Origin: an uncultured Prevotellaceae bacterium
Lineage (GTDB): Bacteria > Bacteroidota > Bacteroidia > Bacteroidales > Bacteroidaceae
DNA length: 56,055 nucleotides
NCBI GenBank assembly: GCA_900318775.1
Contig: ONLY01000015.1
Coordinates: 1-56,055, forward strand
Direction: 5' to 3'
Part shown: positions 38,475 to 40,676 of the stretch, in pieces
Position numbering within the stretch: position 1 is the first letter of the stretch
Layout: every line of letters starts with the position of its first letter
Program-made: the position numbers and the translations under genes
The notes under the pieces: generated by a model
What the model was told of the DNA's origin: nothing
Databases searched by the model: none
What the model saw: only the letters and a program-made list of their open reading frames with translations

Positions 38475-38517
38475 ATATTATTTTTCTTGATTCGTAGTGG
38501 TTATGTCTGATTACGTG

Positions 38518-38525
38518 CAAAGGTA
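38518..38525 (-). promoter_or_regulatory. -7 box for the glycosyltransferase operon
   Basis: TACCTTTG on the minus strand matches TAnnTTTG, with a predicted start near 38514, about 40 nt before the ATG. No clear -33 TTTG. Confidence 0.45.
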
Positions 38526-38652
38526 CACATTTTAATTCACAATTCACAATTCACGGTTCACAAATTACCATTCAAATTGCATTTAGCCCCTAGAAACATA
38601 CTGAAACGTGAAATTATAGGCTCTGGATGATGGACGATGTGTGATTTTTACG

Positions 38653-38660
38653 TACCTTTG
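38653..38660 (+). promoter_or_regulatory. -7 box for the queuosine operon
   Basis: TACCTTTG fits the Bacteroidota -7 consensus. Transcription would start near 38665, about 14 nt before the first preQ1 aptamer. Confidence 0.55.
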
Positions 38661-38678
38661 CACCCGATTTGGACAATC

Positions 38679-38708
38679 CGAGTGCCTGAACACCTCGTCA
38701 AAACAGGC
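38679..38708 (+). promoter_or_regulatory. preQ1-I riboswitch aptamer 1
   Basis: P1 stem CGAG/CUCG (38679-38682 with 38694-38697), an 11-nt loop starting with U and ending with C, then an A-rich tail UCAAAACAGG. The loop CCUG (38685-38688) pairs with tail CAGG (38704-38707), forming the P2 pseudoknot of preQ1-I. The first loop U and last loop C match the ligand-contacting positions U6 and C17 of the B. subtilis aptamer. Confidence 0.7.
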
Positions 38709-38736
38709 GTGTACTAGTAACCACGATAAAAACCAG

Positions 38737-38767
38737 CGAGTGCTTGACGAACCTCGTAAAAAACAAG
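38737..38767 (+). promoter_or_regulatory. preQ1-I riboswitch aptamer 2
   Basis: P1 CGAG/CUCG (38737-38740 with 38753-38756), a 12-nt loop as in B. subtilis, tail UAAAAAACAAG. Loop CUUG (38743-38746) pairs with tail CAAG (38764-38767). Compared with aptamer 1, one P2 pair changes from C-G to U-A, an internal covariation. The tail ends 5 nt before the ATG at 38773, so ligand-bound P2 would block ribosome entry. Context (transporter, queC and queF) agrees. Confidence 0.82.
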
Positions 38768-38772
38768 ATTAC

Positions 38773-39501
38773 ATGAAACAAAAACATCAAGTGAGCGTTT
38801 CCTTCTTGATTGCAGGAATCGTATTCTGTACCTGCCTTGTGGCAGCAAATCTTCTTGAAACCAAAGTCTTTCGTGCTTGGGGACCCATTTCCCTCACCTG
38901 CGGTTTCATCGTTTTTCCAATTTCCTACATCATCAACGACGTGATTGCCGAAGTGTGGGGCTACCGCAAGGCGCGACTCATCATCTGGATGGGTTTCCTG
39001 ATGAATTTCTTTGTTGTTGCCTTAGGCGGTATCGCCTGCGCCCTTCCTGCTGCAGTTGAAGGCAGCGACGAAGCTTTCAAGCAGGTCTTTGCCTTTGCTC
39101 CACAAGTGGCTATAGCAAGTCTTTTGGCATTCATTATCGGTTCTTTCCTCAATGCCATGGTAATGAGCAAGATGAAGATGGCCGACCGCAACAAAGGAAA
39201 CTTTTCTTATTACTTCTCCCTGCGCGCCATTCTTTCTACCCTTGCCGGCGAAAGTGCCGACAGCATCATCTTCTTCCCTTTGGCTTTCTACTTCTTCCCG
39301 CTATTCTTTACGGGCAAGCCACAGCTGCCTTTGGAGGTAATGCTCCAGGTGATGGCTACACAAGTCATAGCCAAGACGCTCTATGAAATTCTCGTCTTGC
39401 CTATCACCATCCAAGTGGTAAAATTCGTAAAGCGCCTGGAGGGCGAAGATGTTTACGATGAGAACATCAATTACAGCGCATTCAACATTACTGATTTATG
39501 A
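38773..39501 (+). CDS. yhhQ: Queuosine precursor transporter (YhhQ family)
   Basis: 242 residues from the ATG at 38773. Six or so membrane segments, with family motifs [12 protein letters not shown], then [21 protein letters not shown] and the [10 protein letters not shown] region. YhhQ proteins (VUT_1 family) import preQ0 or preQ1 from outside. An upstream in-frame extension would run through the riboswitch and is rejected. Under control of the tandem preQ1 aptamers and overlapping queC by 4 bp (ATGA). Confidence 0.92.
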
Positions 39502-40166
39502 TACTCGACAAAAAGAAGGCACTTGTCGTCTTTTCCGGAGGACAAGACAGCACCACTTGCCTGTTTTGGGCCAAGAAGCATTTTGACCAGGTCTATGCGC
39601 TCTGCTTCCGCTATGGCCAGAAGCACGTGAAGGAAGTGGACATCGCACGCGGCATCGCAGAAAAAGCAGGTGTGCCTTTCGAGGAGAAAGATGTCTCGTT
39701 CATCAGCCAGCTGAGCAGCGGATGCTCGCTGACAGATACCAGCATCACGATGGACAAGGAAAAGCCCGCTACTGCTCCTCCCAACACATTCGTGCCCGGA
39801 CGCAACCTCTTTTTTCTCTCCATCGCTGCTGTCTATGCGCGTGAACACGGCATCATGAACCTCGTCACAGGTGTATCGCAGACAGACTTTTCCGGCTATC
39901 CCGATTGCCGTGATTCGTTCATCCGTTCGCTGAATGTATCGCTCAATCTGGCTATGGACGAACAGTTTGTCATTCACACGCCACTCATGTGGATAGACAA
40001 GGCTGAGACCTGGAAGTTGGCCGACGACCTGGGTGTGTTCGATTTGGTCCGCAACGAGACGCTGACCTGCTACAACGGCATCAAGGGTGATGGGTGCGGC
40101 GAATGCCCTGCCTGCAAACTGCGCCGACACGGGCTTGAGGTTTATTTGAAAAGCAAAAATAAATAG
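39498..40166 (+). CDS. queC: 7-cyano-7-deazaguanine (preQ0) synthase
   Basis: 222 residues. ATP-dependent conversion of 7-carboxy-7-deazaguanine and ammonia to preQ0. PP-loop at the start ([16 protein letters not shown]), [15 protein letters not shown], and four zinc-binding Cys at the C-terminus ([19 protein letters not shown]). It overlaps yhhQ by 4 bp and is followed by queF after 12 bp. queD and queE are not in the window. Confidence 0.96.
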
Positions 40167-40178
40167 ACAATCGAACAA

Positions 40179-40676
40179 ATGATACAGAACAATACAAACC
40201 AGCCTACACATGGGCTGGAACGAGAGAAAGAGGGGCTGCAATCCCTCGGCAAGAAAACGGAATACCGTCAAGACTACGCGCCAGAAGTGCTTGAGGCCTT
40301 CCAGAACAAGCACCCCGAAAATGACTATTGGGTGCAGTTCAACTGTCCTGAGTTTACGTCTCTCTGCCCCATTACGGGACAGCCCGACTTTGCAGAGATT
40401 CGCATCTCCTACCTGCCCGACCAGCGCATGGTGGAAAGCAAATCCCTGAAGCTCTACCTCTTCTCTTTCCGCAATCATGGTGACTTCCATGAAGACTGTG
40501 TCAACATCATCATGAAGGATCTCATCCGTCTGATGGACCCGAAATATATTGAGGTCACTGGCATCTTCACTCCCCGTGGCGGCATCAGCATCTACCCCTA
40601 TGCCAATTATGGTCGTCCAGGCACGAAATATGAGGAGATGGCGAATTACAGGCTGATGAATCACGGATTGAAATAA
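40179..40676 (+). CDS. queF: NADPH-dependent 7-cyano-7-deazaguanine reductase
   Basis: 165 residues, the short unimodular type. Reduces preQ0 to preQ1, the ligand of the upstream riboswitch, closing a feedback loop. The nucleophile Cys lies in [14 protein letters not shown], followed by the QueF motif [20 protein letters not shown]. The C-terminus [18 protein letters not shown] is typical. Last gene of the operon; a hairpin with a T-tract follows. Confidence 0.96.

Follow-up and report, generated by a model that had tools for sequence, protein, structure and literature searches.

Three abutting candidate preQ1-I type II aptamers ahead of a yhhQ-queC-queF operon in a Bacteroidaceae genus

The leader of the yhhQ-queC-queF operon of an uncultured Prevotellaceae bacterium (assembly GCA_900318775.1, contig ONLY01000015.1) probably carries a row of three adjoining preQ1 aptamers (class I, type II) that share a single expression platform in which preQ1 would bring about the burial of an A-motif. 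The stretch of DNA analysed, 56,055 nt in length, is referred to below as the window. Several parts of this reading are apparent from the sequence itself: the pseudoknot form of the units, their ligand-contact residues, the conservation of each unit at its own place, the constant location of the last unit beside the start codon and the lack of a terminator-like site. The organism belongs to the genus of Candidatus Minthosoma caballi, a genus of gut bacteria, and not to Prevotella, which the initial annotation of this DNA had proposed as the comparison group. That annotation had also described two consecutive aptamers: both are real, but they are not consecutive, as a third lies between them.

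Layout of the leader and identity of its units

By sequence inspection, the three aptamers lie head-to-tail on the forward strand with no linker bases. The first copy, A1 (38679-38707), has a P1 stem of CGAG/CUCG (38679-38682/38694-38697), a P2 pseudoknot helix of CCUG/CAGG and the AC of type II. The internal copy, A2 (38708-38736), is 29 nt in length (CGUG-UACUAGUAAC-CACG-AUAAAAA-CCAG), with a P1 of CGUG/CACG and a P2 of CUAG/CCAG that is Watson-Crick at 3/4 positions. The terminal copy, A3 (38737-38767), has a P1 of CGAG/CUCG (38737-38740/38753-38756) and a P2 of CUUG/CAAG, and is presumed to act as the expression platform. All three units have the parts of an H-type pseudoknot: P1, loop, P1', A-rich tail and a P2 formed between loop and tail. 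The CGAG/CUCG stems, the loops with U first and C last, the A-rich tails and the pseudoknots CCUG/CAGG and CUUG/CAAG had all been located correctly by the initial annotation, and its second tail does end 5 nt before the yhhQ ATG (38767 and 38773, respectively). An arrangement of two aptamers plus a 29-nt linker was rejected, since the linker is itself aptamer A2 (the third-ranking match in the window for the R2 model described below).

A small hairpin (P0) adjoins the array on its 5' side, and the preQ1-pathway genes yhhQ, queC and queF lie directly 3' of it on the same strand, as identified with Pfam and NCBIfam models. The first, yhhQ (38773-39501), encodes a queuosine precursor (preQ0/preQ1) transporter (PF02592 [Vut_1], E 2.1e-45; TIGR00697, 104.7 bits, cut-off 50.95). 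The start of queC (39498-40166), encoding 7-cyano-7-deazaguanine synthase, overlaps the yhhQ stop (PF06508, E 9.7e-79; TIGR00364, 246 bits, cut-off 150.3). It is followed by queF (40179-40676), encoding preQ1 synthase of the QueF-II type (TIGR03139, 174.1 bits, cut-off 86.9). These matches bear out the earlier description of a tandem preQ1-I array before a transporter-queC-queF operon. Among related loci, queC and/or queF follow yhhQ in 107/110; the other three loci end in or just after yhhQ.

A Bacteroidota -7 promoter element, TAnnTTTG (TACCTTTG), is found at 38653-38660 on the forward strand; we take this to be the promoter consensus, with transcription expected to start a few nt downstream, near P0. 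Given the position of this element, the 5' leader would consist of almost nothing but P0 and the array. In 28/29 leaders of the genus and in 58/78 others, TAnnTTTG is present in the 70 nt that precede the first aptamer. P0 itself (GAUU-UGGAC-AAUC, 38666-38678, forward strand) ends zero bases before A1. Among 106 leaders, the share with a stem of at least 4 bp that ends right at the first aptamer is 69%, compared to 60% for stems ending one base earlier (some of these helices are shared) and 9-34% for stems ending 2-25 nt earlier. P0 hairpins are longer and GC-rich in several Bacteroidaceae yhhQ leaders outside the window genus. No P0-like hairpin is mentioned in the available text of a review of preQ1 riboswitches (PMC11625349).

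The G-C pocket floor, the U of L1, the C specificity base and the last A of L3, named as class I ligand contacts (PMC11625349), are present in A1, A2 and A3 and in 70/70 copies of the genus; the scanner used for counting itself required the L1 U and the specificity C (not the floor or the last A), and five of these copies were read by hand. An AC preceding the P1 3' strand, which marks type II preQ1-I aptamers (PMC11625349), is found in 68/70 genus copies, and reads CAC in A1 and AAC in both A2 and A3.

Covariance models were built from relatives. An initial 45-aptamer alignment misplaced the Bacteroides-type loops, and the alignments behind models R1 and R2 exclude those loops. R2 consists of 25 aptamers from other genera of the family, two of which are identical to copies in the window genus and none of which is identical to A1, A2 or A3. 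With filters off, the top three R2 matches in the 56-kb window are A3 (47.3 bits, E 1.7e-7), A1 (22.1 bits, E 0.015) and A2 (18.5 bits, E 0.076); the fourth (E 1.7) is a chance match. Over the 2.6-Mb genome of the organism, the top two places go to A3 and A1, in that order, and A2 comes fourth, just under a chance match. When run on the genus's 29 leader loci, a total of 101,595 bases, R2 returns 68 matches at E<=1, all of them within the 70 counted copies; the two that it misses are internal copies (L007 and L028).

The number of units exceeds chance: among 5000 dinucleotide shuffles of the 110-nt leader, the scanner finds one aptamer in 179 and two in none, compared to three in the real leader. 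In a 24-sequence alignment, 100% of P1 cells are paired, double-sided changes are seen at two of the four P1 pairs, and the covariation score is 0.411 versus 0.093 in shuffled alignments (0/500 as high). Two of five P1 measures are not above shuffles, namely the number of pairs with double changes (2 versus 1.3, 166/500 as high) and of further pair types (3 versus 2.2, 139/500 as high), in a stem of only 4 pairs. Folding of the leader by a method blind to pseudoknots is no better than that of shuffles (z -0.08) and lacks the three P1 stems.

The weakest unit is A2, with its 3/4 Watson-Crick P2 and the chance match placed above it genome-wide by R2. As the Thermoanaerobacter tengcongensis (Tte) aptamer likewise has an incomplete P2, with only two of four steps canonical (PMC11625349), this weakness does not disqualify A2.

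The Rfam PreQ1 model (RF00522), put forward in the initial annotation as a check, gives no match in the window at its gathering score, nor in the leader at E<=10; its best score over the organism's own genome, 16.4 bits against a cut-off of 39, is a background match elsewhere. The model is equally silent at E<=5 on nine further loci, comprising one triple array and eight single-copy loci (four from other genera of the family, two from sister species and two from other families), and it passes its cut-off in 1/14 control genomes (the class may be absent from some of them). Because RF00522 misses single-copy relatives and most control genomes as well, its silence is weak counter-evidence. These results show that RF00522 overlooks the Bacteroidales members of the preQ1-I class tried here.

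Copy number, conservation and context of the arrays

A yhhQ gene is present in 32/45 genomes of the genus and in 320/399 of a family sample, and 118 leaders were examined, 29 from the genus and 89 from 21 other genera. Three copies are found in 17 of the genus leaders, two in 7 and one in 5 (counts that include five hand-added copies outside the scanner limits). With R1, a model that includes sequences of the window genus, 30 genus genomes have a match; 17 of them show three matches and 5 show two, always side by side. Assembly RUG13218 (L125) is a near relative of the window. The genus assignment draws on a yhhQ match of G001 (C131:32017-32739) that shares its coordinates with the match in JAGHVC010000122.1 (L129), and on the identity of YhhQ residues 20-200 between L015 and L129.

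Outside the genus, 74/89 leaders have one scanner match, 8 have none and 7 have a second match. In four of the eight matchless leaders (L044, L072-L074), an aptamer whose tail exceeds the scanner limit can be recognized by eye. No second genuine copy was found in these 89 leaders: none of the seven second matches combines the G-C floor with the AC mark, and the one that nearly adjoins its aptamer (1 nt, L100) spans the promoter element.

Wider surveys, in which 18 candidates per genome were scored under strict filters that weak second copies may escape, gave a similar picture. The family survey, made with R1, found a match in 221/399 genomes; among the matches listed, two occur in each of four genomes outside the genus (G049, G053, G080, G155), none of them adjacent. 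Matches were found in 62/393 genomes of the order survey, with no adjacent pair except in the window genome, and in 11/395 of the class survey, with the same outcome for adjacency. No match was found in a plasmid collection, and none in viral contigs searched for one array pattern.

In seven genomes (G049, G053, G080, G155, G468, G513, G695), two single preQ1-I matches lie at distant loci, and the class may therefore control a second gene in some Bacteroidales. There are also yhhQ genes in the family without a preQ1-I scanner match (L106-L108, genus g22); genome G195 has one yhhQ with an aptamer and one without (L105, L106). The single preQ1-I aptamer of L035 (G040; R2 E 3e-4) has a whole hairpin (ACCUUCA-GUCG-UUGAAGGU) in the loop before the P1 3' strand.

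Each place in the array is conserved. In 15 triple arrays, between-species identity is 0.92 for A1, 0.855 for A2 and 0.95 for A3, compared to a background of 0.44 measured on sequence 5' of the promoter whose placement was approximate. The copies of a single genome resemble one another at 0.69-0.83, and the nearest unit in another genome occupies the same place for 45/45 units, although the species are related and such counts are of non-independent events. Many of the genomes are metagenome-assembled. The triplication is therefore old, and each place has been kept. Recent slippage of identical copies was rejected, as the copies are distinct and place-specific across species. The initial annotation had named a first copy free to mutate as grounds against its proposal; first copies are in fact 92% identical between species, against that rough background of 44%, and so are not free to change.

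Junctions between copies have 0 nt in 39/41 cases and 3 nt in the other two (L023, L026). Neighbouring copies differ in P1 type (CGAG or CGUG) at 39/41 junctions, where 18.1 would be expected with random neighbours (0/2000), a figure that is not a strict probability given the relatedness of the species. Such alternation should prevent pairing between a P1 strand and the unit that follows. P2 is fully Watson-Crick in 22/24 first copies and 23/24 terminal copies versus 3/17 internal copies; 12/17 internal copies have only two P2 pairs, mostly CCAG/CCAG. The P2 of first copies varies in a paired fashion (CCUG/CAGG, CUGG/CCAG and CUUG/CAAG), which bears out the covariation first noted between copies of this leader. 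Insulation of neighbours by differing P2 sequences was found to be unsupported: the tail of one unit makes a mean of 3.24 pairs with the loop of the next, against 3.23 for random neighbours. Since this cross pairing nearly equals the 3.33 pairs made with the unit's own loop, P2 is uninsulated and misfolding is possible.

In a tree of YhhQ (81/110 proteins), a long, fully supported branch holds 21 species with 16 triple and 5 double arrays, and carries a YhhQ of 242 residues. A second YhhQ clade, which includes single-copy neighbours, comprises four leaders with one copy and two with a pair; the pair resembles A2-A3 in L032 and A1-A2 in L034. There are two YhhQ types in the genus, one of 242 residues on the long branch and one of 228 residues alongside the single-copy neighbours, a pattern that looks like the replacement or acquisition of one type. 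A linked queC is found with 5/5 single-copy leaders versus 5/22 tandem leaders with downstream sequence in reach. A tie between copy number and queC loss was set aside, as the pattern follows the two YhhQ clades and is only a lead. Many tandem-array species have an operon of yhhQ-queF only, without queC, and a strong QueC match is absent from 11 such assemblies (G006, G007, G008, G009, G011, G015, G016, G017, G029, G031, G044); this suggests that species without QueC salvage preQ0 via YhhQ and QueF. Several genomes (including G001, G002, G003, G010, G012, G024, G027, G030, G035 and G043) have a second, weaker QueC away from yhhQ, at approximately 180-200 bits versus approximately 250-266 for the operon type.

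Expression platform and alternative explanations

The position of the terminal aptamer is fixed relative to the start codon. In 106 leaders (of 118) passing the filter, 2-9 nt (median 4) separate it from the first in-frame ATG. The A-rich L3 tail of the terminal aptamer covers positions -12 and -13 in 103/107 leaders, and both positions are A in 100; in the window, the A-tract of A3 (38758-38763) spans -15 to -10 relative to the yhhQ start. No intrinsic-terminator-like site was found at 38500-38900 (0.5 expected by chance). This close spacing and the lack of a terminator-like site make translational control the simplest reading, and they leave without support the combined transcriptional and translational control that had been suggested for two aptamers in series.

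Bacteroidia ribosomes do not read Shine-Dalgarno sequences (PMC9976891), and initiation in Flavobacterium johnsoniae is aided by low structure, by A-3 and A-6 and by an A-motif at -12/-13 (PMC8710568). In class I structures, L3 adenines dock in the minor groove of P1 (PMC11625349). We propose that when preQ1 is scarce the A-rich tails would be free, with the last one offering its A-motif at approximately -12/-13 to the ribosome, and the transporter and synthesis enzymes would be made. When preQ1 is bound, each tail would dock in its own P1 and pair with its own loop; bound A3 would bury the A-motif at -15 to -10 and block initiation, switching translation off. No separate platform can be seen for A1 or A2, so they would work via A3 or via ribosome access to the leader, most likely by end-to-end stacking combined with the removal of ribosome-accessible A-rich single strand upstream. 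With A1 and A2 present, the response to preQ1 may be steeper than that of a single aptamer, or shifted. In simple occupancy models, the 90-to-10% span is 81-fold for one copy, 32-fold for three independent copies and 4.3-fold for three fully cooperative copies; for three copies, the EC50 is 0.26 Kd when a single bound copy is enough to block and 3.85 Kd when every copy must be bound, with the 32-fold span in either case.

A bolder form of this proposal is that the three pseudoknots and P0 make up a linkerless stacked rod that binds preQ1 cooperatively and forms an A-motif-hiding platform of a new kind. We consider this possible but doubtful. A rod of this sort could tolerate the weak middle P2 (two pairs in 12/17 internal copies), as its neighbours would hold the unit in place. 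Were it correct, three aptamers would be cooperating on one platform, an arrangement absent from the available text of a review of tandem riboswitches (PMC9481103).

The alternatives overlap with one another and with the main reading, so that their likelihoods need not sum to one. The one with most in its favour is that only A3 regulates, with A1 and A2 serving as spacers or 5' stability elements or persisting as slippage relics that no longer sense preQ1. One aptamer suffices for most of the family (74/89 leaders outside the genus) and for 5/29 leaders within it, and the P2 of internal copies is weak (3/17 fully Watson-Crick, compared to 22/24 first and 23/24 terminal copies). We nevertheless regard it as rather unlikely: A1 and A2 are conserved at 0.92 and 0.855 over the rough background of 0.44, with units matching by place in 45/45 cases; the four ligand contacts (two of them scanner-required) are kept in all counted copies; the P2 of first copies changes in a paired way; and the Tte aptamer, too, has two of four canonical P2 steps (PMC11625349). 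Alternatively, the array could act on transcription, with bound aptamers pausing polymerase or exposing the leader to Rho and any effect on translation being secondary. Other type II preQ1-I switches control transcription (PMC11625349), copies this close to the 5' end could act early, and Rho effects are invisible in sequence. The empty interval at 38500-38900 (no terminator-like sites, 0.5 expected by chance) and the 2-9 nt between terminal aptamer and start codon in 106 leaders, which leave no room for a terminator, make control of this type unlikely.

Three independent switches, each with its own platform, would amount to a pseudo-cooperative device, and the series of three copies of one ligand class, together with the narrowing of the modelled span from 81-fold to 32-fold, would suit it. 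It is improbable here, as no copy upstream of A3 has a visible platform of its own: junctions of 0 nt (39/41) or 3 nt (two) accommodate neither a terminator nor a start-codon context between copies. Very improbable is an array of some other RNA, or of a DNA-binding repeat, that merely resembles preQ1-I. The failure of Rfam to recognize the units is in keeping with such a lookalike, but P1 pairing is kept across genera, the class I ligand contacts are present, and queC and/or queF stand behind yhhQ in 107/110 loci.

Relation to known riboswitches and significance

The units resemble the preQ1-I type II aptamers of Bacillus subtilis and T. tengcongensis in being H-type pseudoknots of approximately 30 nt with the AC mark, the same contacts and an A-rich L3, and A2 shares with the Tte aptamer an incompletely paired P2 (PMC11625349). 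In contrast to the three abutting copies seen here, the examples described in the available text of that review are single. The platform also differs, being neither a terminator nor a Shine-Dalgarno sequence, and RF00522 is silent on the Bacteroidales members tried. The preQ1-I type III riboswitch of Escherichia coli yhhQ has the same target gene family and similarly switches translation off via the 3' end of P2 (PMC11625349). Unlike the array, it is a single aptamer, and the element it buries is a Shine-Dalgarno sequence (AAGG), a signal that Bacteroidia ribosomes ignore. Beside the 5' strand of P1 it also has a UU motif; the corresponding bases of the window copies are UG or UA.

Glycine and guanidine-II riboswitches have folds that are unrelated to preQ1-I. 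They are alike in that similar aptamers for the same ligand feed one platform, but those in the available text of PMC9481103 are dual, not of up to three copies. A single platform serving several homologous aptamers, the defining feature of a glycine-type multi-aptamer riboswitch, is what the anatomy of the array presents. Three copies of one class in series are also found among c-di-GMP-I (12 triplets), SAM-I (1), FMN (4) and Moco (2) riboswitches; these are complete riboswitches in series and pseudo-cooperative (PMC9481103), in contrast to the touching units and single start-codon platform described here.

The same 2022 review places preQ1-I, -II and -III with the classes for which no tandem examples were found, reports that a mixed SAM-I/preQ1-II pair (McCown 2014) could not be recovered and sets preQ1-II candidates aside as possible false positives (PMC9481103). 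In the available text of the 2024 review, a tandem arrangement is mentioned for glycine only (PMC11625349). Among the matches listed in literature searches for tandem aptamers or preQ1, no title or abstract opening describes an array of preQ1-I units, which is a weak negative.

The occurrence in this genus of preQ1-I arrays, often of two or, as in the window, three joined copies, contrasts with that part of the 2022 review (PMC9481103). As preQ1-I aptamers rank among the smallest riboswitch folds (PMC11625349), the 90-nt triple array provides a small natural system for testing the influence of copy number and stacking on dose response. The genus offers a ready series for this, with sister species that carry one, two and three copies before the same gene, and the siting of the A-motif makes the mechanism of translational riboswitches in Bacteroidia testable.
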